From Treponema primitia ZAS-2 (GTDB taxonomy: Bacteria; Spirochaetota; Spirochaetia; Treponematales; Breznakiellaceae): DNA of 64,000 bases. The notes under the pieces were generated by a model. That model ran no database searches, was not told the DNA's origin, and saw only the letters and a program-made list of their open reading frames with translations. Positions 7,612 through 21,149 of this stretch are shown here, piece by piece. The stretch is from the NCBI RefSeq assembly GCF_000214375.1, contig NC_015578.1:930001-994000 (forward strand). The letters are read 5' to 3'. How positions within the stretch are numbered: the first letter of the stretch is position 1; the number at the start of each line of letters is the position of its first letter. The translations under genes were made by a program, and so were the position numbers.

Positions 7612-8325
7612 TTAGAGAATCGCTGCGGCGCCCTGGTTGATGAGATTCGCCTGGTATCCCGCGCCGAAACCATTGTCAATGTTTACCACCGAGATCCCCG
7701 GTGCGCAGGAGGTGATCATGCCCAGGAGCGCCGAGAGGCCCCCGAAAGAGGCGCCGTAGCCTACGCTGGTGGGGACCGCGATAACCGGCACGGAAATCTG
7801 CCCTGCCAGCACACCAGCTAGTGCTCCCTCCATACCCGCCACAGCCACCACTACCCGGGCCTTGCGTATATCAGGGAGACGGCGAAACAGGCGGTGTATC
7901 CCCGCAATGCCCACATCGTTGATCAGTTCTACTTTGCTGCCCAGGAATTCTGCGGACAGGGCGGCCTCTTTGGCGATGGGGAGGTCCGAGGTCCCTGCGG
8001 CTACCACCGCAATCAGGCCTTGCAAGTCGGTCTTGGGGCGGACCCTGCCCACCATGAGGATCCGGGAAATGGCGTCGTATTCGGTTTCGGGGAAACGGCT
8101 GAGTACCCGGTCCGCCAGGGCTTGGTCCGCCTTAGTACCCAGTACCGGGATGCCCTGCTCGCGCATCTTTACTATGATGGCCTCTGCCTGGTCCGTAGTT
8201 TTTCCTGAACAGAACACTACCTCGGGGTAACCGGTCCGCTTGTCCCGGTAGGTATCAATGACCGCGAAGCCCAGGGAGTCTTCGGTCCCGGAACTTTCAG
8301 GGTCTTTATTTTCCGGCAAATCCAT
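7612..8325 (-). CDS. larB: Nickel-pincer cofactor biosynthesis protein LarB
   Basis: LarB carboxylates and hydrolyses nicotinic acid adenine dinucleotide, the first step to the nickel-pincer nucleotide (established for the family). The PurE-like C-terminal domain is evident: VVAAGTSDLPIAKEA, VAVAGMEGALAGVLAG and PVIAVPTSVGYG. The chosen ATG at 8325 has GAGAGG upstream and gives 237 residues; a longer in-frame start at 8394 would lie deep inside larC. It overlaps larC by 20 bp and is the last gene of larECB. Confidence 0.93.
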   Translation of the reverse strand: MDLPENKDPESSGTEDSLGFAVIDTYRDKRTGYPEVVFCSGKTTDQAEAIIVKMREQGIPVLGTKADQALADRVLSRFPETEYDAISRILMVGRVRPKTDLQGLIAVVAAGTSDLPIAKEAALSAEFLGSKVELINDVGIAGIHRLFRRLPDIRKARVVVAVAGMEGALAGVLAGQISVPVIAVPTSVGYGASFGGLSALLGMITSCAPGISVVNIDNGFGAGYQANLINQGAAAIL

Positions 8326-9712
8326 CTTTGATGATCCTCTCAGCTTCTTCCAGTGATATATTCCGTTCCCGGGCCAGAGCGGCACGGTCTTCAAATTCTA
8401 CCTTTGAGCGCAGCTTTTCTGCGCCGTAAAAAACTGTTTTTCGCCGGGCGTTTCCCAGGTCCGGGCCAAGCTGGTCCTCTTCCCGGCGGAGGGAAAGCCG
8501 TCTGACCGGGGTTTCCCGGAACCCGATGGTGGTGGATTTACGGAACAGGGTTTCCCTGAGAGGGTTGAGCTTTTCCGGGCCGGTCAAAACCGAAACAATG
8601 GTCCCGGGCCGGGACTTTTTCATCACGCAGGGGGTGAAGGTTACATCCAGTGCACCGGCAGCAAAGAGGCTCTCCATGAGGAAGCCCAGGGCTTCGCCGC
8701 TCATGTCGTCGATGTTAGCCTCCATGAGGGTCAGTTCCTCGGTTTTCCAGGGCGCCGCCTCCGCATTTTGCAACGCAGTAATGGTGTTTTTGCCGGGATC
8801 CTCTTCCCTCAGGGAAATTCTGAGCAGGTTGGGCCGTTCCATTTTTCGGGTACCGATGCCGTAGCCGGTTTTGATTTCCCGGAAACTCCGGACATCCGTA
8901 AATTCATCCACCATGGAAGCCAGGATTGCCGCCCCGGTGGGGGTGGTCATTTCCTTATTGAAGCCCCCGGTTTTGACGGGCATTCCCCGGGTAAGGATCA
9001 CCGTGGCCGGGGCGGGTACCGGCAAAATCCCGTGGGCGCAGCGTACCGTGCCGCCCCCCAGTTCGACTTCCCCGCAGGTAACCCGGTCCGGCTTGATCAG
9101 GTCCAGGCATATTGCCGCGCCTACAATATCTATTATCGAATCCAGGGCGCCAACTTCGTGGAAGCTTACTTCTTCCACTGAGCGCCCATGTACCTGGGCT
9201 TCCGCTTCGGCAATACGGGTAAAAATGTCCAGGGCCCGCTTCTTTGCCCCTTCGCTCAGTGCGGAGCCCTGAATGATGGCCCGGATATCCTTCCAGGTCC
9301 TGCCGTGGCTGTGCTGGCCGCCCCCCCCATGGGTATGTTCCTGTGTAGGGTGAGGTACGTTAGTATGTGTATCGTCATGGGTATGCGAATGCGCGTCATT
9401 GTGAGTATGGTGATGGGTACCGTCATGTGTATGGGACTGTGCATCGCCATGTGTATGGGGTTGTGCACCGTCATGTGTATGGGAAGGTGCATCATCTTGG
9501 ACAAGGGGCGTTTCATCCCCAAGATCAACCACCGCATGGGTTCCGGAGATGCCTCCCCGCTGGTCCCGTTCAAAACGGAGTTCCCAGCCCTCAATGCCGA
9601 GCTTGCCCAGCTCTGTACGGAGCGCTTCTGGGTCGACCCCCAGGTCCATAAAGGCCCCCAGGGTCATATCCCCGGAAATACCGGCTGAACAGTCAAAATG
9701 AAGGGTTTTCAA
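8306..9712 (-). CDS. larC: Nickel insertion protein LarC with His-rich insert
   Basis: LarC is the CTP-dependent nickel cyclometallase that inserts Ni into the pincer cofactor. The N-terminus FDCSAGISGDM and the C-terminal SRPGTIVSVLTGP segment are typical. In Lactiplantibacillus LarC is made by a ribosomal frameshift between two ORFs; here it is one continuous 468-codon frame. Residues ~75-130 hold a low-complexity array of about eight HTHD/HTHG-like octapeptides, encoded by imperfect 24-bp repeats (about 9330-9500), a probable nickel store. It lies 9 bp after larE and overlaps larB. Confidence 0.93.
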   Translation of the reverse strand: MKTLHFDCSAGISGDMTLGAFMDLGVDPEALRTELGKLGIEGWELRFERDQRGGISGTHAVVDLGDETPLVQDDAPSHTHDGAQPHTHGDAQSHTHDGTHHHTHNDAHSHTHDDTHTNVPHPTQEHTHGGGGQHSHGRTWKDIRAIIQGSALSEGAKKRALDIFTRIAEAEAQVHGRSVEEVSFHEVGALDSIIDIVGAAICLDLIKPDRVTCGEVELGGGTVRCAHGILPVPAPATVILTRGMPVKTGGFNKEMTTPTGAAILASMVDEFTDVRSFREIKTGYGIGTRKMERPNLLRISLREEDPGKNTITALQNAEAAPWKTEELTLMEANIDDMSGEALGFLMESLFAAGALDVTFTPCVMKKSRPGTIVSVLTGPEKLNPLRETLFRKSTTIGFRETPVRRLSLRREEDQLGPDLGNARRKTVFYGAEKLRSKVEFEDRAALARERNISLEEAERIIKDGFAGK

Positions 9713-9721
9713 GGGTACTCC

Positions 9722-10564
9722 TTATGCCTGTACCTGGGCTATGGCCCGGTTCAGGTTTCCCATGACATAGCCCTCCAATTCTAGGGAAACATAGAGAAAA
9801 CCGTAAGATTTAAGGTCCCGGGAAATGCTGTCCAGGAGTTTTTCGTCAAAGAAACGGCGCCGTTCCTCCGGAGCCACCTCGATCCGGGCAGTATCCCCGT
9901 GGGACCGTACCCGAAACTGGCGGAATCCTGCTTCTTGCAGGCGTACTTCAGCCTTTTCTACCCGCGAAAGCTTGTCCCGGTCTATCCGCTCGCCGTAGGG
10001 GATCCGGGAGGCCAGACAGGCAAAGGCGGGCTTATCCCAGGTGGGCAGATCAAAACGCTTGGACAGGTCCCGGATTTCCTGCTTTCTGAGCCCCGCTTCC
10101 CGCAGGGGGCTGAAAATCTGAAGCTCCGACAGGGCCTTAAGCCCCGGCCGGTAATCCCCCAGATCATCCAGATTTGATCCGTCAAGAACCGTGTTGATCC
10201 CCCGCTTTTTCGCTTCCTGGAGGATATTGCCGAATTCTATCTTCTTGCAATAGTAGCAGCGCTCCTTAGGGTTCGCCGCCACCTCCTCATCGATCTCAGA
10301 TTCTTCTATTAGTATATGTTCAATCCCGACCTTTCCGGCCACCAATGTCGCCCCGTCGATTTCGCTCTTAGGAAGCATAGGGGATACCACAGTGATAGCG
10401 ATTGCCCGCTTTCCCAGGGCTGCGGTTGCTGCGTGGCAGAGGAAGGAACTGTCCACCCCGCCTGAAAAGGCCACCGCCACGGCGCCTTTTGCGGCGATCA
10501 TGGATAGGAGATCCGCGTATTTTTCATCCAGGGTTTTTTGAGATTCGGCCATAGTAATGCTCAT
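9722..10564 (-). CDS. larE: ATP-dependent sulfur transferase LarE, three-cysteine type
   Basis: LarE adds the two sulfurs of the pincer nucleotide. A PP-loop FSGGVDSS (about residues 33-40) adenylates the substrate. Cys183 in ACLASRIPYG corresponds to the sulfur-donating Cys of Lactiplantibacillus LarE. Cys103 and Cys106 (CYYC) are extra; together they match the three-cysteine LarE class reported to hold an Fe-S cluster and work catalytically instead of sacrificially. It is the first gene of larECB. No SD is visible; the ATG lies 6 nt after a candidate -10. No larA is present in the window. Confidence 0.92.
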   Translation of the reverse strand: MSITMAESQKTLDEKYADLLSMIAAKGAVAVAFSGGVDSSFLCHAATAALGKRAIAITVVSPMLPKSEIDGATLVAGKVGIEHILIEESEIDEEVAANPKERCYYCKKIEFGNILQEAKKRGINTVLDGSNLDDLGDYRPGLKALSELQIFSPLREAGLRKQEIRDLSKRFDLPTWDKPAFACLASRIPYGERIDRDKLSRVEKAEVRLQEAGFRQFRVRSHGDTARIEVAPEERRRFFDEKLLDSISRDLKSYGFLYVSLELEGYVMGNLNRAIAQVQA

Positions 10565-13389: not shown

Positions 13390-13418
13390 TTGACAGTTTT
13401 TATCCTTTCAGCTACCCT
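13390..13418 (+). promoter_or_regulatory. Promoter of the his operon
   Basis: TTGACA (13390-13395), a 17-bp spacer and TACCCT (13413-13418). The expected start of transcription falls on or next to the leader-peptide ATG at 13425, which has no Shine-Dalgarno sequence. Confidence 0.6.
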
Positions 13419-13424
13419 TTCCCA

Positions 13425-13508
13425 ATGAACCGGATTTTCGCGGCCCTGGGCCATCACCACCATCATGGATACTCTTTGCCCCCGGAATCCGGCGGCTTCG
13501 CAAGGTAG
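13425..13508 (+). CDS. hisL: his operon leader peptide
   Basis: A 27-codon ORF (MNRIFAALG, then HHHHH, GYSLPPESGGFAR) has five consecutive His codons (CAT CAC CAC CAT CAT, 13452-13466). It sits between the his promoter and a strong terminator just before hisG. This is the classical architecture of amino-acid-starvation attenuation: ribosomes stall at the His codons when His-tRNA is scarce. It is too short for standard gene calling. Confidence 0.85.
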   Translation: MNRIFAALGHHHHHGYSLPPESGGFAR

Positions 13509-13571
13509 CTTGCGGAGACGTTTTAAGCGGTATTTTGACCGTGGATTCTCCGGAGTCCACGGTTTTTTTTT
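13482..13571 (+). terminator. his attenuator: antiterminator and intrinsic terminator
   Basis: The terminator is CCGTGGA / TCCACGG (13539-13562) followed by nine T residues (13563-13571), ending 10 nt before hisG. A competing arm CCGGAATCC (13482-13490) can pair with GGATTCTCCGG (13543-13553, with a 2-nt bulge), destroying the terminator. The competing arm lies 16 nt after the His codons: exposed when the ribosome stalls there, covered when it reaches the stop at 13508. A CGCAAG/CTTGCG hairpin lies between. Confidence 0.85.
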
Positions 13572-13581
13572 GGAGAAACGA

Positions 13582-14436
13582 ATGGAAAAACTGAGGATAC
13601 TGATCCCTAAGGGACGGATTTTTGACAATGTGGCGCGGCTCTTTTCCGAGGCGGGGTTTCCCATATCCCTGGCGGACCGGACTTACCGGCCGATTATCGG
13701 CGCGGACTGGCTGGATGCCAAGATCATGAAGCCCCAGAATGTGGGTGAACTGCTGGAACTGGGGAGCCATGATGCGGGGTTTACGGGCATCGACTGGATC
13801 AGGGAAAGCGGCGCCGATGTGGTGGAGCTGTTGGACCTGGGTATGGACAAGGTCCGCATTGTGGCGGCGGCGCCTGCCGGCATGGATGAGGGGGCGCTCA
13901 GAGCAAAGAAGCTGGTGGCGGCCACGGAATACGTGAACCTTGCCGGGGAATGGCTCAAACAGCAGGGCTACCAATACCGCATACTCCGTACCTATGGCGC
14001 TACCGAGGTTTTTCCCCCCGACGATGCGGACATGATCATCGACAATACTTCCTCGGGGCAAACCCTGAAGGATAACGGCCTGCGTATCGTTGCGGTGATC
14101 CTGGAATCCTCCACCCGCTTTGTGGCGTCCAGGGCGGCCATGGCTGACCCGGAGAAACGGCGGCGTATTGAGGAACTGGCCATGCTCTTTAAGGCGGTCC
14201 TGGACGGCCGGGACCGGGTGATGCTGGAAATGAACATCCCCAAGGACCGGTTTGCAGAAATTGTAGCCGGGCTTCCGGCCATGAAAAGCCCCACGGTTGC
14301 GCCCCTTTATGGGGACGAGGGCTATGCGGTGAAGATCGCGGTGAAGAAGCACGAGGTCCCGGATCTCATCCCCCGTTTAAAGAAACTCGGCGCAGGGGAT
14401 ATTGTGGAGTACGATTTGCGGAAGGTGGTTCCTTGA
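13582..14436 (+). CDS. hisG: ATP phosphoribosyltransferase, long form
   Basis: HisG catalyses the first step of histidine synthesis, ATP plus PRPP to phosphoribosyl-ATP. The 284-residue protein starts at MEKLRILIPKGRIF, with GGAG 8 nt before the ATG; upstream in-frame starts fall inside the attenuator. ADMIIDNTSSGQTLKDNGL is the PRPP-binding region, and the C-terminal ~75 residues (SPTVAPLYGDEGYAVKIAVK) form the ACT-like regulatory domain of the long form, which needs no HisZ and is feedback-inhibited by histidine. First structural gene of the operon. Confidence 0.95.
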   Translation: MEKLRILIPKGRIFDNVARLFSEAGFPISLADRTYRPIIGADWLDAKIMKPQNVGELLELGSHDAGFTGIDWIRESGADVVELLDLGMDKVRIVAAAPAGMDEGALRAKKLVAATEYVNLAGEWLKQQGYQYRILRTYGATEVFPPDDADMIIDNTSSGQTLKDNGLRIVAVILESSTRFVASRAAMADPEKRRRIEELAMLFKAVLDGRDRVMLEMNIPKDRFAEIVAGLPAMKSPTVAPLYGDEGYAVKIAVKKHEVPDLIPRLKKLGAGDIVEYDLRKVVP

Positions 14437-14473: not shown

Positions 14474-15100
14474 ATGGCGAGGATTGCTGAGATAACGAGG
14501 AAAACTAACGAGACGGATATTACCATAAAGTTGAACCTGGACGGGACCGGGGGGGCGCGGCTGAATTATCCTATAGGGTTTATGGGTCATATGCTCAATA
14601 CTTTTGCGCGGCACGGGCTTTTTGATCTGGAGGTCCGGGCTACGGGGGACCTGGAGGTGGATCAGCATCATCTGGTGGAGGACACAGGGATAGTGTTGGG
14701 CCAATGCTTCGCAAAAGCCCTGGGGGAGAAACGGGGGATACGGCGTGTGGGGAGCTGCCTCTACCCCATGGATGAAACCTTGGCCCGGGCTGCGGTGGAT
14801 ATTTCCGGGCGGCCCTTCCTGGTTTTTGATGCCCAGCTTTCCGGCATCCCCTTGGTGTCCGCGCCCTTGGGAGGCGGGGAGGGGACCGCCACCTTTCAGA
14901 CTGATACTGTAGAAGATTTCTGGCAGGGATTCAGCATTGCTGCGGGTTTCACCCTGCACCTGGATATACTTCGGGGCAGAAGCGATCACCACAAGATAGA
15001 AGCGCTGTTCAAAGCGGCAGCCCGGGCTTTCCGGGAGGCTGTGGAAATTGATCCCCGTTCAGCGGACAGTATTCCGTCCACAAAAGGGGTGCTGGTATGA
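14474..15100 (+). CDS. hisB: Imidazoleglycerol-phosphate dehydratase
   Basis: The 208-residue monofunctional HisB dehydrates imidazoleglycerol phosphate. The metal-binding His motifs are present: DQHHLVEDTG (about residues 70-80) and RGRSDHHKIEALFKA near the C-terminus, with GFMGHMLN earlier. It lacks the histidinol-phosphatase domain of the E. coli protein, and no other phosphatase for that step is in this operon. AGGGGG precedes the ATG. The short gap from hisG is made of purine-rich heptads. Confidence 0.95.
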   Translation: MARIAEITRKTNETDITIKLNLDGTGGARLNYPIGFMGHMLNTFARHGLFDLEVRATGDLEVDQHHLVEDTGIVLGQCFAKALGEKRGIRRVGSCLYPMDETLARAAVDISGRPFLVFDAQLSGIPLVSAPLGGGEGTATFQTDTVEDFWQGFSIAAGFTLHLDILRGRSDHHKIEALFKAAARAFREAVEIDPRSADSIPSTKGVLV

Positions 15101-15113
15101 CCGGGAGGGCAGT

Positions 15114-15743
15114 ATGATTGGGGTGATTGATTACGGCGCAGGAAACCTGGGTTCGGTGATGAATGCCCTGAAGCGGATGGGCTGCGAGGCCGAATTTGTC
15201 CGGGGCCCCGAGGAGCTGTCCGGCGGGTCCGGGGCTAAAGCGCCTTACGAAAAGGTGCTCTTCCCCGGGGACGGCCACTTTGCTACCGCCATGGCTTCCC
15301 TGAAAAAATCCGGTTATGCTGCGGCGCTCCAGGAATGGATTCAGGCGGACAAGCCTTTCCTGGGCATCTGTATCGGCCTTCAGCTCCTGTTCGATAGTTC
15401 TGAGGAAGCGCCGCCTGTGGACGGCAAACCTGTGCGCGGCCTGGGCGTAATCCCCGGCACCGTAAAACGCTTCCCGGGCCGCAAGGTCCCCCAAATCGGC
15501 TGGAACCAGACCCAGGCCAGGCCCGCATCAAAACTGTTTCGGGGCTTGCCGGAAAATTCATTTTTTTACTATATACATTCGTATTATGTGGACCCGGTGG
15601 ATGAATCGGCAGCCGCCGCCTGGGCCGAATACTACCTGCGCTACTGCTCTGTGGTGGAGCGGGGTGCTTTGGCAGCGGTTCAGTTTCACCCGGAAAAGTC
15701 CGGGGCTCTGGGGCTGCAGGTTTTGGAGAACTGGGCGCGGTAG
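15114..15743 (+). CDS. hisH: Imidazole glycerol phosphate synthase, glutaminase subunit
   Basis: HisH releases ammonia from glutamine for HisF. The 209-residue class I amidotransferase starts at MIGVIDYGAGNLGSV; the nucleophile Cys is in FLGICIGLQLL, and the His-Glu pair in VQFHPEKSG. The start overlaps no other gene and lies 13 bp after hisB. HisF is encoded next but one step away, 27 bp downstream, as expected for the heterodimer. Confidence 0.95.
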   Translation: MIGVIDYGAGNLGSVMNALKRMGCEAEFVRGPEELSGGSGAKAPYEKVLFPGDGHFATAMASLKKSGYAAALQEWIQADKPFLGICIGLQLLFDSSEEAPPVDGKPVRGLGVIPGTVKRFPGRKVPQIGWNQTQARPASKLFRGLPENSFFYYIHSYYVDPVDESAAAAWAEYYLRYCSVVERGALAAVQFHPEKSGALGLQVLENWAR

Positions 15744-15770
15744 AAGAACTGTGCCGAAGAGGAGGACGAT

Positions 15771-16571
15771 ATGCAAGCCAAGCGAATAATTCCCTGCCTG
15801 GACGTGGACGACGGCCGGGTGGTAAAGGGCGTCAAGTTCAAGGGCATACAGGACGCCGGGGACCCGGTGGAACTGGCCCGGCGTTACAACGATGATGGCG
15901 CCGACGAGCTGACCTTTCTGGACATCGGCGCTTCCTATAAAAGCCGGGCTACCCTGCTGGATGTTGTTCGCCAGGTAGCAGCAGAAGTGTTCATCCCCCT
16001 CTGCGTAGGCGGCGGTATACGGACCGTAGAAGATATGCGGGAAGCCATGAACGCCGGGGCCGATAAGGTTTCTGTTTGCACATCGGCTTTGCAGAACCCC
16101 GCCCTGCTCACCGAAATGGCCCGGGCTTATGGAAGTCAATGCGTGGTGCTGTCTATCGACGCCAAGCGGGTAGAGCATTCCGGAAGTGAAAAACCGAAAT
16201 GGAATGCCTATTCCCACGGCGGGCGGGAGGACACGGGCATTGATGCGGTGGAGTGGGCCATAAAGGCAGTGGAGCTGGGGGCGGGGGAAATACTCCTCAA
16301 TTCCATTGACGCGGATGGCACAGGGGCGGGCTATAATTTGGAACTGACCCGGGCCATCCTGGCGGCGGTTCCGGTTCCGGTGATAGCCTCAGGGGGCGCG
16401 GGTACCTTGGACCAGATAGCCAATGTGCTTCTGCCTCCGGGGGAGCAGGGTGGCGATCAATGGGGTAATGCCGACGCTGCCCTGGTAGCATCACTGTTAC
16501 ACTTTGGAAAAACTACGATACCGGAGATCAAGAAATACGCAGAATCAAAAGGAGTGTGTGTCAGATGGTAA
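15771..16571 (+). CDS. hisF: Imidazole glycerol phosphate synthase, cyclase subunit
   Basis: HisF is the beta/alpha-barrel that joins ammonia to PRFAR and releases IGP and AICAR. The 266-residue protein shows both half-barrel phosphate sites. Catalytic Asp residues are in [12 protein letters not shown] (N-terminal) and [11 protein letters not shown] (middle); [10 protein letters not shown] and [11 protein letters not shown] are the phosphate loops. Its stop overlaps the start of the next gene by 7 bp. Confidence 0.95.
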
Positions 16572-17881
16572 TCGCTTCAATAGATGTGCAAGACGGCAGG
16601 GTTGTTCAGCTTAAGCAGGGGGCGGAGCTGGTTTTGCACAGGGATAATGCGGCGGAACTGGCTGAAGAATTTGACCGCTATGGGGAAGTGGCGGTTATCG
16701 ATTTGGACGCCGCCATGGGAAAGGGTAGTAACCTTGAAATGATAAAACTCCTGCTTCGCAAAGCGGAATGCCGGGTGGGCGGGGGAATCAGAAATACTGA
16801 GCAGGCAAAGGAACTGGTGAGCCTGGGGGCCCGGAAGATTATCCTTGGGTCATCGGTATTCAGAAACCCTGACAAGAAGGGCGCGGGAATAGCCGGGGGC
16901 GAATTTGCCGTTAACGTTCCTTTTTTGGAGGCCATGGTTAAAAAAATTGGAAAGGAACGGATCATCGTCGCCGTGGACGCCAAAAGCTTTGCCGAAAGGG
17001 GCGGTGAGAAAAACTACGGGATAGTGGTGGATGGCTGGAAGACCCCAACCGGCCTTGACCTTATCGAAACGGCAAAGACGGTGGAGCCCTATGCCTCGGA
17101 ACTCCTCTTTACCTGTGTTGACCGGGAAGGCACCATGACCGGCATCGACCTGGAACCGGTAAAAAAACTACGCGAGGCGGTTTCCTGCGGCATCACCGCC
17201 GCCGGAGGGGTCTCTACCCTGGAAGAAATAGAATCACTGGCTGCCCTGGATTGCGATGTCCAGCTCGGTATGGCCCTGTACACCGGTAAGATCAGCCTAG
17301 CGGATGCCTTCACCGCTTCACTTAACTGGAAGAAAGGTACTCCGGCTTTGCCCGTGATCGCCCAGTCTCCGGACGGCCAGGTTCTGATGACCGGCTTTGC
17401 GGACAAAGAGGCGGTGGCGGAAACTTTTAAGCGGGGCAATCTCTGTTTCCACAGCCGCAGCCGGGACAAACTCTGGATGAAGGGCGAAAGTTCTGGGAAC
17501 ACACTAAGCCTGCGCCGCCTCAGGGCTGACTGTGACAGGGATGCTATTCTGGCGATAGTGGAGCCTGCCGGGCCGGTCTGCCATACCGGGGATTGGTCCT
17601 GTTTCGGGACTAACCGCCGCTATACCTGGGAATACCTCCAGTCGGTCATTGCTGAACGGTTCCGCAACCCCACTCCCGGCTCCTATACGGCGACCCTGGA
17701 CGACGAACTGGTCCGGGAAAAGGTGATGGAAGAGGCCGAAGAGGTCTGTACTGCCAAGACCCACGATGAAATTGTCTGGGAATCGGCGGACCTGCTCTAC
17801 TTCACCACCGCCCTTATCACCCGCTCCGGGGTAAACGTAGGGGAAGTGCTGGATGAATTGGACCGGAGGCACAAAAAGTGA
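16565..17881 (+). CDS. hisAIE: HisA-HisI-HisE trifunctional fusion
   Basis: The 438-residue protein joins three activities that are normally on two or three polypeptides. Residues ~1-240 are HisA (ProFAR isomerase barrel: [47 protein letters not shown]). Residues ~250-345 are HisI, PR-AMP cyclohydrolase ([35 protein letters not shown]). Residues ~350-438 are HisE, PR-ATP pyrophosphohydrolase ([25 protein letters not shown]). The order of reactions is E, I, A, so the fusion would channel three successive steps. The ATG at 16565 overlaps hisF; the stop overlaps hisC. Confidence 0.93.
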
Positions 17882-18939
17882 GCTCATACTGGAATCAACG
17901 CACACAAAAACTGTCCCCATATATACCCGGCGAACAGCCCCGGGACGGGGAATTTATCAAACTCAATACCAACGAGAATCCCTACCCGCCATCGCCTAAG
18001 GTTATTGAGGCGATTAAGGCTGCTGCTGCGGACACCATGCGGCTTTACCCGGACCCGGTTTGCGGGGAACTGCGAGAGGCTATTGCAGGCCGCTACGGGG
18101 TTACGCCGGAACAGGTCTTTGTAGGGAACGGGTCAGATGAGGTTTTGGCCTTTGCCTTTGGCGCGTTTTTTGACCAGGATATACTATTTCCGGATATCAC
18201 CTACAGTTTTTATCCGGTTTATGCTGGTTTGTGGGATATCAGTTTCCGCAGCATTCCTGTTAGCGATGATTTTTCTATCAATTACAAAGATTACCTGATT
18301 CCTAACGGTGGGATTATCTTTCCAAACCCCAATGCGCCTACCGGCAGGTCCCTGCCCCTGGAGGATATATTTGCCATTGCCAGTTACCAGGAAAAACTGG
18401 GTAAGGTACTGATAGTTGACGAAGCTTATGCAGCTTTTGCCGCCGGGAGAGTGTCTGCGGTTTCCTCAGGCGGACGGCACAACCTGCTCACGGTGCATAC
18501 CCTTTCTAAGGCGTTTTCCCTGGCGGGGCTCCGGGTGGGATTTGCCATCGGCAGTGAGGAACTTATTGAAGGGCTTAACCGGGTAAAGGACAGTTTTAAT
18601 TCCTATACCCTGGACAGGCTGGCCCAGGCCGGCGCTGCTGCCGCTATCAGGGACTCAGACTATTATGAGGGGATAACAGCAAAAGTAATTGCCACCCGAG
18701 AACGTGTTGTCGCCACTCTGATAGCTCAGGGTTTCACCGTAATTCCCTCGGAGGCAAACTTTCTCTTTATCCAGGCCCCGGGCAAACCGGGCCCCGAATT
18801 TTTAGTCGCCCTCCGTGAGCGGGGGATTTTGGTGCGTCATTTCAACAAACCCCGGATCGCAGATTACCTGCGGGTAAGCATCGGTACCGATGAGGAAATG
18901 GATGCGTTCCTTGCGGCTTGCGGGGAAATCGGGAAATAA
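17878..18939 (+). CDS. hisC: Histidinol-phosphate aminotransferase
   Basis: HisC transfers the amino group from glutamate to imidazole-acetol phosphate with PLP. The 353-residue fold-type I enzyme has KLNTNENPYPPSP at the N-terminus, VGNGSDEVLAFAF, FPNPNAPTG, VDEAYAAF and the PLP lysine in HTLSKAFSLAGLRVGF. The start is a GTG overlapping the preceding stop (GTGA), so it is translationally coupled. Confidence 0.94.
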   Translation: MSSYWNQRTQKLSPYIPGEQPRDGEFIKLNTNENPYPPSPKVIEAIKAAAADTMRLYPDPVCGELREAIAGRYGVTPEQVFVGNGSDEVLAFAFGAFFDQDILFPDITYSFYPVYAGLWDISFRSIPVSDDFSINYKDYLIPNGGIIFPNPNAPTGRSLPLEDIFAIASYQEKLGKVLIVDEAYAAFAAGRVSAVSSGGRHNLLTVHTLSKAFSLAGLRVGFAIGSEELIEGLNRVKDSFNSYTLDRLAQAGAAAAIRDSDYYEGITAKVIATRERVVATLIAQGFTVIPSEANFLFIQAPGKPGPEFLVALRERGILVRHFNKPRIADYLRVSIGTDEEMDAFLAACGEIGK

Positions 18940-21149
18940 TGGGGAGTGAGGAATCAGGGGTGACAAATGAGGAGCGAAGGGTGAGAATATTAGTGAGCGC
19001 CGATTTTGACAGCTACTGGGAGGGGCTTTCTGTTCCCGTTACTGATGAAGGGGTGTCCGCTGCGGTTAGGGAAGTTATCGCCGGGGTGCGGAAAGACGGT
19101 GATGCGGCGGTGCGCAGTTATGCTGCCCGATTTGACCGGAGTTCCCCGGAAACTCTGGAAGTGCCCATGTCCGCCCTTAAGGCTGCCTGGGAAAATCTCA
19201 GGGCCGAGGAGCCGGAATTGGCGGCGGCACTGGAACTGGCAGCGGGACATATAAGACGTTTTGCGGAAAAGCAGAAAGCTCAGTTCGGGGACTTTGAGTA
19301 TGAAATGAGCCCCGGGCTTTTTACAGGCCAGCGGGTTATCCCGGTTCAGCGGGCTGCCATCTATGTGCCCTCGGGGCGCTTTCCCCTGATCTCCACGGTC
19401 CTCATGGGGGCCATCCCCGCAGTCGTAGCCGGAGTCCCGGAAGTTATGGCAGTATCGGCGCCCCTGGAAGACGGCCTCCCGGATCGGCGCATCCTGGCCG
19501 CCGCATACATCGCCGGACTTCATCGGGTCTTCGCTATCGGCGGCGCCCAGGCCATAGCGGCCCTGGCCCTGGGTACCAAAACTGTTCCTCGCGTAGACAT
19601 CATCGCCGGTCCGGGCAACAAGTATGTGGCCGCCGCCAAGCGCCTCCTCTTCGGCGAAGTGGGCATAGACTTTGTGGCAGGCCCCACTGACGTGCTTATC
19701 ATCGCTGACGATACCGCCGATGTCCCGCGAACCGGCGTCTCCGGCGCAAGCAGTGCCATTGCTGTTACCGATGCTGCGGATCTTGCCGCCGCAGATATGC
19801 TGGCCCAGGCGGAACACGATCCTGATGCCCGCGCCCGGGTTTTGGTCCCCAACAGGGATTTTGCTGACCGGGTCGCCGTTGCTTTGGAAAAGCGCCTGGC
19901 GGTTTTGCCCACTGCGGAAACTGCCCGGGCATCCTTGGACGCCGGGGGGCTCATCATCGTTTATGAAACAAAAGACGAGGCCTTGCGCATTGCCAATACC
20001 ATTGCTCCTGAGCACCTGGAACTCCAGGTTGCCAATCCGGAAAGCTGGGTACCTGCACTGAAAAACTACGGCAGCCTCTTCATCGGGGATATGGCAGCGG
20101 AGGTGTTGGGGGATTATTCCGCAGGGATCAACCACACACTTCCCACCTCCGGGAGCGCCCGCTTTTCAGGCGGCCTTTCGGTGCGGCATTTCCTCAAAAC
20201 CGTCACCACCCTTCGTTGTGAAAAAGGTTCCGGCTTTGAGGAAGCTCGCTTGGCTGCGGAATGCATAGCTCAGGCGGAGGGCCTGATCGCCCACCGGGAA
20301 AGCGCCGCAGCCAGGAGTAAGCCATTGACCCCTGGTTCTATCGAAAACCACCGCAGCCGGGAAGGGGGCGCCCTGGTGTACCCAGTCTATTCCCGCCGAT
20401 CCCGGGGCCTGTCTGTGGGAATCAACCTCTTCCCTGATGAAAAAATCTGTACTTTTGACTGCCCCTACTGCGAGGTTTTTCCGTTTAAGACAGACATTAG
20501 TTTTTCTGTCCCCCTGATGGAGCAGACTTTGCGGGAGGTTCTTTCTCAGGCCCATTCCCAATCAATAGAAGTGAAGGATATTTGTTTTTCCGGCAATGGG
20601 GAGCCTACGATCTCTCCCCATTTTCCCGCTGCTCTGGAAGCGGCGCTCCGCATTCGGGATGAACTTGTTCCCTGGGCTGCCCTGGTGGTGATCACCAACG
20701 CCACAGGATTACTGAACGATCGGATCTTTGAATTATTGCGTTCTGCCGCTGCCGGAAAGGCCGCTCTCAGGATCTGGCTGAAACTGGACGCAGGGACCGA
20801 AGCCTGGTACTCCCGGATGGACCAATCTTCAGTCCCCTTCGACAGTCTCCGCGCCCGGATACGGGAGTTCGCCGCCCTGGCCCCCTTTACCGTGCAGACC
20901 ATGATCTGCGCCATAGACGGCGCCCCGCCATCGGCTGAGGAGGCCACAGCCTGGGAGCGCCTGGTTCTGGACCTTGCCGGGGGCGGTAAGATCCGCTCGG
21001 TGCAGATTTACGGCAAAGCCCGCCCAAGCCCTGGCGACCCCCAGGCTTCCCAACTGCCGCTATCCTTCCTTGAAGAACGGGCCGCGTCCCTCAGAACCGC
21101 CCTGGGCGGGTCCGGAAGGGACGCCATACCGGTGGAGGTTTTTCCCTGA
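18939..21149 (+). CDS. hisD: Histidinol dehydrogenase fused to a radical SAM domain
   Basis: Residues ~10-440 are a complete HisD, the NAD- and Zn-dependent last enzyme of histidine synthesis: VPSGRFPLISTVLM, AGPGNKYVAAAK, FVAGPTDVLI, EHDPDARARV, IAPEHLELQ (catalytic Glu-His) and INHTLPTSGSARFSGGLSV. After a ~30-residue linker the frame continues into a ~260-residue radical SAM domain. Its cluster motif is CTFDCPYC (CX3CX2C, encoded at 20448-20471), followed by FSGNGEPTISPHF and VVITNATGLL, like COG0731/Tyw1-type proteins. Normal HisD is ~430 residues; I see no stop or frameshift at the junction. The start is the ATG at 18939 (TAATG overlap) or a GTG at 18981 with GGAG upstream. The radical SAM substrate is unknown. 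Confidence 0.9.
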   Translation: MGSEESGVTNEERRVRILVSADFDSYWEGLSVPVTDEGVSAAVREVIAGVRKDGDAAVRSYAARFDRSSPETLEVPMSALKAAWENLRAEEPELAAALELAAGHIRRFAEKQKAQFGDFEYEMSPGLFTGQRVIPVQRAAIYVPSGRFPLISTVLMGAIPAVVAGVPEVMAVSAPLEDGLPDRRILAAAYIAGLHRVFAIGGAQAIAALALGTKTVPRVDIIAGPGNKYVAAAKRLLFGEVGIDFVAGPTDVLIIADDTADVPRTGVSGASSAIAVTDAADLAAADMLAQAEHDPDARARVLVPNRDFADRVAVALEKRLAVLPTAETARASLDAGGLIIVYETKDEALRIANTIAPEHLELQVANPESWVPALKNYGSLFIGDMAAEVLGDYSAGINHTLPTSGSARFSGGLSVRHFLKTVTTLRCEKGSGFEEARLAAECIAQAEGLIAHRESAAARSKPLTPGSIENHRSREGGALVYPVYSRRSRGLSVGINLFPDEKICTFDCPYCEVFPFKTDISFSVPLMEQTLREVLSQAHSQSIEVKDICFSGNGEPTISPHFPAALEAALRIRDELVPWAALVVITNATGLLNDRIFELLRSAAAGKAALRIWLKLDAGTEAWYSRMDQSSVPFDSLRARIREFAALAPFTVQTMICAIDGAPPSAEEATAWERLVLDLAGGGKIRSVQIYGKARPSPGDPQASQLPLSFLEERAASLRTALGGSGRDAIPVEVFP

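Follow-up and report, generated by a model that had tools for sequence, protein, structure and literature searches.

The his attenuator of enteric bacteria has a leader gene with a ribosome-binding site, and its first arm lies at the His codons. The mechanism it exemplifies, ribosome-mediated transcription attenuation, is already known. According to the part of their paper available to us, the leader peptides known to Naville and Gautheret (2010) were confined to Proteobacteria and Actinobacteria until their study added those of bacilli (PMC2965389), and in the accessible portion of a later report further His leaders come from Firmicutes (PMC9413887). These precede hisS/hisZ in bacilli and the his operon in the B. 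cereus group, Erysipelotrichales and others, and combine 3-5 consecutive His codons with a terminator and an antiterminator; they belong to another phylum, and we liken them to the leader described here by description, the available excerpts containing no mention of a leaderless start (PMC2965389, PMC9413887). Leader-peptide attenuators that are leaderless are described in Actinobacteria for C. glutamicum ilvL and for S. lividans trpL, leuL and ilvL. In the text accessible to us, their leader ORF begins at or one base from the +1 without a ribosome-binding site and, in the C. glutamicum model, a first hairpin shields the initiation site (PMC11857589, PMC8079986). They concern other amino acids and another phylum, and the excerpt available of an actinobacterial survey reports no conserved RNA structure before histidine operons (PMC1262725). 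Likewise, in the alphaproteobacterium Sinorhizobium meliloti, the 5' end of the attenuated trpL RNA, a tryptophan case, is the leader ORF ATG (PMC7298713, partial text). No spirochaete attenuation or leader-peptide case was found in the open-access literature, in agreement with an earlier note that was aware of none, and a subscription paper may exist.

The same note had read the sequence upstream of hisG in Treponema primitia ZAS-2 as a his attenuator. Our analysis supports this reading well and adds its breadth among spirochaetes, covariation, a protector arm in leader codons 3-4 and a leaderless layout. The window, that is, the whole 64,000-nt stretch that was analysed, belongs to a genome assembled as a single contig of 4,059,867 bases. 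Its features of interest are as follows.

13390..13418, + strand: promoter, with TTGACA at 13390-13395, a 17-nt spacer and TACCCT at 13413-13418; predicted +1 at 13425, with the 6-7 nt layout from the -10 box to the start seen in relatives
13425..13508, + strand: leader peptide gene MNRIFAALGHHHHHGYSLPPESGGFAR, ATG at 13425, stop TAG at 13506-13508, 27 amino acids, without a Shine-Dalgarno-like site
13431..13436, + strand: arm 1, the protector (CGGATT, leader codons 3-4), pairing with 13486-13491 (6/6 pairs); helix 87.3% paired in 21 sequences
13452..13466, + strand: control codons, five consecutive His, read directly and compared with a shuffled null in relatives
13484..13491, + strand: arm 2 (GGAATCCG), 5' arm of the antiterminator, within the leader ORF, assessed by covariation tests
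13528..13530, + strand: CGG, able to form an auxiliary 3-pair helix with 13539-13541 in the antiterminator state; 96.8% paired, nearly invariant
13537..13571, + strand: intrinsic terminator hairpin, with arm 4 at 13552-13558 and nine T at 13563-13571; listed by the terminator scan
13543..13549, + strand: arm 3 (GGATTCT), 3' arm of the antiterminator and 5' arm of the terminator; 7/7 pairs with arm 2 and 7/7 with arm 4
13582..14436, + strand: hisG (PF01634, PF08029), first gene of the controlled operon, with GGAG at 13572-13575
14474..21149, + strand: rest of the his operon, namely hisB, hisH, hisF, a hisA-hisIE fusion, hisC and a hisD-radical SAM fusion, named from Pfam matches and gene order

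Direct reading confirmed the promoter and the 27-residue leader with five His codons proposed by the earlier note. Its antiterminator pairing also holds, as GGAATCC (13484-13490) is complementary to GGATTCT (13543-13549), and the nine-T terminator that it placed just before hisG (ATG at 13582) was recovered by the terminator scan. Arm 1 was absent from it, as was the spacing by which the predicted +1 coincides with the first base of the leader AUG. The -10 box is weak, with three of six bases matching TATAAT, and because of this the promoter fell below the threshold of the promoter-pattern scan (9 of 12 matches) and was not listed. The terminator scan scored the his terminator with 12 pairs, one of two terminator-like sites in the region against 1.3 expected. 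The auxiliary helix has little covariation support because it is nearly invariant. The fold of the T. primitia leader outscored 200 of 200 shuffles (z -2.9). The genome contains seven separate 5-His sites, and the six others were rejected as leaders, since the his leader site alone is a short ORF of the leader kind.

The T. primitia leader resembles the enteric hisL attenuator (Rfam RF00514, His_leader) in its His-run peptide, its exclusive antiterminator and terminator and the position of the terminator before hisG. In contrast, its leader gene seems to be leaderless, and arm 1 precedes the His run, falling in codons 3-4. RF00514 itself is not matched: the leader reaches 17.4 bits where 49 are required (E = 1), and the window holds no match at the gathering threshold. 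Although its proposed mode of action is that of the enteric his attenuator, the spirochaete element falls outside the RF00514 sequence family.

To follow the leader among spirochaetes, regions upstream of hisG were collected from the family, the order (60 of the listed places), the class and the phylum; close relatives were recorded as Treponema sp., Spirochaetia bacterium, Gracilinema caldarium and Breznakiella homolactica (Breznakiellaceae, Treponematales), and strain RmG30 of the last carries the leader (L047/L157). Below, f1-f4 denote families of one order and f12 a family elsewhere in the class Spirochaetia. A leader was defined as an ORF of 6-60 codons that ends before hisG and contains a run of three His or three His within six residues. 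The 162 f1 entries collapsed to 123 distinct regions, and one further f1 locus (L262) came from the order set. By this definition 104 regions carried a leader, of which 99 were left after five doubtful His matches (L086, L108, L186, L284 and L287) were dropped by eye; these five are still counted in the 104 and in the 77 scored promoters discussed below. His-rich leaders preceded hisG in 44 of 124 f1, 6 of 33 f2, 14 of 14 f3, 12 of 12 f4 and 23 of 25 f12 loci, the last figure combining 23 of 24 in the criterion set with L030, found without a leader in the class and phylum survey. A terminator was scored in 92 of the 99 leaders, and the seven lacking one by our filter were excluded from the folding tests.

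In f1 these runs go beyond chance: runs of at least four His occurred in 31 of the 123 distinct regions and in none of 20 shuffled sets, while the loose definition returned 47 regions against a mean of 3.3 and a maximum of 7 in 20 shuffled sets. The remaining 80 of the 124 f1 hisG genes have no detected leader, and many of them lie closely behind another ORF or lack a promoter match. No run of at least three His was found before hisG in the 84 non-f12 loci of the 89-locus phylum and class survey, an absence lightly tested as many of these loci belong to the low-G+C family f29 and most other families are represented by one or few genomes. The earlier note would have abandoned its reading had neither the His run nor the competing stems been kept in sister species; both are conserved, with covariation. 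On this comparison, what had been one example is a conserved system across related spirochaetes.

Leaders at three f1 loci look altered or in decay: in L206 the His run is clear but no stop codon comes before the terminator, and L104 and L106 keep the arms and the terminator with few, scattered His codons.

A typical f1 leader begins ATG-AAR/AAY-CGG-ATT, in which CGGATT is arm 1. This arm is complementary to the bases that follow the His run (arm 2, e.g. GGAATCCG), and arm 2 in turn repeats the 3' half of the terminator and pairs with its 5' half (arm 3). The sequences vary between species while the complementarity stays, as illustrated by L036, L042, L100 and L198; in f3, f4 and f12 the arm sequences differ and the order of the arms is the same. 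In fixed register and with kinship uncorrected, f1 pairing exceeded that obtained with permuted partners for arms 2 and 3 (0.888 vs 0.837, reached in 0 of 2000 permutations; 32 of 37 sequences, five with gaps being excluded), for arms 3 and 4 (0.938 vs 0.855, 0 of 2000; 30 sequences) and for arms 1 and 2 (0.807 vs 0.767, 19 of 2000). Furthermore, in an alignment of 21 sequences the antiterminator was 94.7% paired, and at most 52.4% when slid by 1-3 columns. In the same number of sequences, the protector and terminator together were 92.0% paired, with 16 double-change cells against 5.6 in shuffled alignments (0 of 500; kinship again uncorrected). Taken one leader at a time, the duplex of arms 2 and 3 was more stable than its shuffles (duplex energy, p<=0.05) in just 29 of 92 cases; such per-sequence tests are too weak in G+C-rich leaders, and the permutation, fixed-register and slide controls were therefore used. 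By pairing and covariation, the antiterminator and the terminator are mutually exclusive, and across the aligned leaders three competing helices are kept with compensatory changes.

We then considered how the leader gene is started. Promoters were sought over a wide range before the His codons, and the distance to the next in-frame start codon was recorded. A promoter was scored for 77 leaders; the gap between the end of its -10 box and the start codon was 6 nt in 44 of them and 7 nt in 17. When the first in-frame ATG was chosen blind to the promoter, 65 of 95 leaders had a TTGAC starting 34-38 nt upstream of that codon, compared with 0.7 in shuffled sequences. Shine-Dalgarno-like tetramers preceded 7 of 95 leaders and 57 of 95 hisG starts. 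The leader gene looks leaderless because of this spacing (61 of 77) and the rarity of Shine-Dalgarno-like motifs, and its transcript probably begins at or within one base of the leader AUG. The same attenuation could operate on a leadered transcript, with the true +1 upstream and the 6-7 nt spacing marking something else. Such an arrangement would suit three leaders with a scored promoter 28-35 nt away from the start codon, and also f4, where fewer promoters (4 of 12) conform to the leaderless spacing. However, the sharp 6-7 nt mode, the contrast between leaders and hisG in Shine-Dalgarno-like motifs and the abundance of leaderless mRNAs in another spirochaete, Leptospira interrogans, described in the accessible part of PMC5243855, make it unlikely. 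The apparently leaderless start also qualifies the word "classical" applied in the earlier note: the his attenuation design and its conserved competing arms stand, but the leader has no Shine-Dalgarno-like site, and it is the initiation region, not the control codons, that contains the protector arm.

T. primitia may have many leaderless genes, as the pattern TTGAC-N17-19-TANNNT-N5-7-ATG occurs at 66 sites in its genome against 22 for a reversed control. By eye, these sites include full-length genes resembling murA and a ParA-type ATPase. Among 30 of the 66 sites that were read, only the his leader has an amino-acid run together with a terminator. A separate search for Trp-rich short ORFs at nine trpE loci (8 of 12 genomes had such a locus) gave no convincing leader before trpE.

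The earlier note had suggested folding the leader with and without a stalled ribosome. Transcripts of the 92 leaders with a scored terminator were cut before arm 4 and folded in three states: ribosome-free, stalled with the first His codon occupied by a ribosome, and with a ribosome at the stop codon. The pairing of arm 3 with upstream RNA rose by 0.253 from the at-stop to the stalled state, against 0.065 (sd 0.022) in flank-shuffled leaders (z 8.4), and by 0.198 from the ribosome-free to the stalled state, against -0.012 (sd 0.018; z 11.6). The stalled-minus-stop excess was clear in f1 (z 4.5) and f12 (z 6.3) and weak in f2, f3 and f4 (z 2.0, 1.3 and 2.3, respectively). These results support the view that, in the model, a ribosome stalled at the His codons leaves the antiterminator arm more accessible than it is in shuffled leaders. 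This holds across the 92 leaders but not for the T. primitia leader by itself, in which pairing was 0.47 without a ribosome, 0.79 when stalled and 0.56 at the stop, a shift that is not significant as 5-6 of 40 shuffles equalled it. For this reason, the comparative evidence rather than a single fold carries the attenuator claim.

The T. primitia leader has a His-rich short ORF, an intrinsic terminator between this ORF and the first gene and an exclusive antiterminator, three features of a ribosome-mediated attenuator. It also lacks a Shine-Dalgarno-like site and has a spacing that puts the predicted +1 at or next to the AUG, which places it with the leaderless attenuators as judged from promoter spacing and motif counts only. 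Given the ORF, its conserved His codons, the three competing helices with their covariation, the terminator and the promoter-to-AUG spacing, the his operon is very probably controlled by ribosome-mediated transcription attenuation on a leaderless leader transcript. From the predicted +1, leader translation, stalling and the response to histidine would run as follows. A ribosome would load on the 5'-terminal AUG with RNA polymerase still within the leader. When charged tRNA-His is ample, it would reach the stop codon and cover arm 2, and arms 3 and 4 would pair as the terminator ahead of hisG, giving a leader RNA of about 147 nt. Under a shortage of charged tRNA-His, the ribosome would stall on the His codons and cover arm 1, so that arm 2 could pair with arm 3; terminator formation would then be prevented and the operon would be read. 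Without a loaded ribosome, the terminator would form by default and the initiation region would be closed, because arm 1 would pair with arm 2.

Control of a real terminator without a ribosome, by a protein or small molecule that picks the RNA form, or a constitutive terminator with an incidental His ORF, would draw on the fact that translation of the leader ORF is a prediction only. Against it, His runs exceed chance by far in f1 and appear again, amid other flanking sequence, in four further families; a ribosome at the stop codon would cover arm 2, which is inside the ORF or directly behind it; and no Rfam family, T-box or riboswitch included, reaches its gathering score in the window. We regard it as very unlikely.

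On the attenuation reading, the position of arm 1 at nucleotides 7-12 of a leaderless mRNA means that the protector hairpin would close the sole ribosome entry site, so that each transcript would get one early chance of ribosome loading and otherwise terminate. Since f1-f4, all of one order, and f12 share the plan with different arm sequences, it is possible, at somewhat less than even odds, that the leaderless his attenuator is old in the class Spirochaetia and that its protector hairpin acts as a timing gate atop the histidine sensor. Peptide-leader attenuation would be extended to a phylum for which the open-access literature yielded no case, implying a transcription-translation coupling tight enough in these spirochaetes to run it. 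By joining a His sensor with leaderless translation, initiation on leaderless mRNA would become part of the control. The several versions of the arms before the same gene offer a natural set for studying how attenuators originate, persist and are lost.

A covariance model built on f1 leaders matched once in the T. primitia genome, and 38 of the 98 genomes of the family had a match. In total, 38 of its 40 matches precede hisG and one precedes hisB in genome G472; the element therefore belongs to the head of the his operon and not to hisG as such. The last match (G262:C3, E 0.006) was rejected as spurious, as it resembles an ordinary terminator. That 39 of the 40 matches lie at his genes also bears on whether the ORF encodes a functional His-rich, metal-binding small protein found before hisG by coincidence. 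The peptide is indeed His-rich, but mainly the run and the arm bases are kept among relatives, the rest of the peptide being variable, and we consider this explanation extremely improbable.

In G472, the attenuator (L418, 533-652; leader MRFFPAMYHYHHLF) stands directly before hisB-hisH-hisF, and hisG is on another contig. In G404, whose match is counted among the 38 before hisG, an ORF that by eye resembles a group II intron reverse transcriptase (L420, 1044-2474) lies between the his attenuator and hisG, with the upstream terminator intact.

The Pfam content of the T. primitia operon comprises HisG with its C-terminal domain, IGPD (hisB), a glutamine amidotransferase (hisH), an aminotransferase (hisC), histidinol dehydrogenase (hisD) and two His_biosynth proteins, one being hisF and the other hisA joined to two hisI domains. 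This hisA fusion with both hisI domains (PRA-CH and PRA-PH) is one 441-aa ORF (16556-17881), and in a 743-aa ORF (18918-21149) histidinol dehydrogenase (PF00815) is followed by a C-terminal radical SAM domain (PF04055, barely above the cutoff). The hisG frame is open back to an in-frame ATG at 13465 (13465-14436), at which automatic annotation could begin hisG and hide the leader. This start was rejected, as 13465 falls within the leader and alignments with HisG relatives begin at 13582. Elsewhere in the window, three adjoining ORFs on the minus strand (7612-10564) resemble, by eye, larB, larC (with a long His-rich stretch) and larE of lactate racemase maturation.
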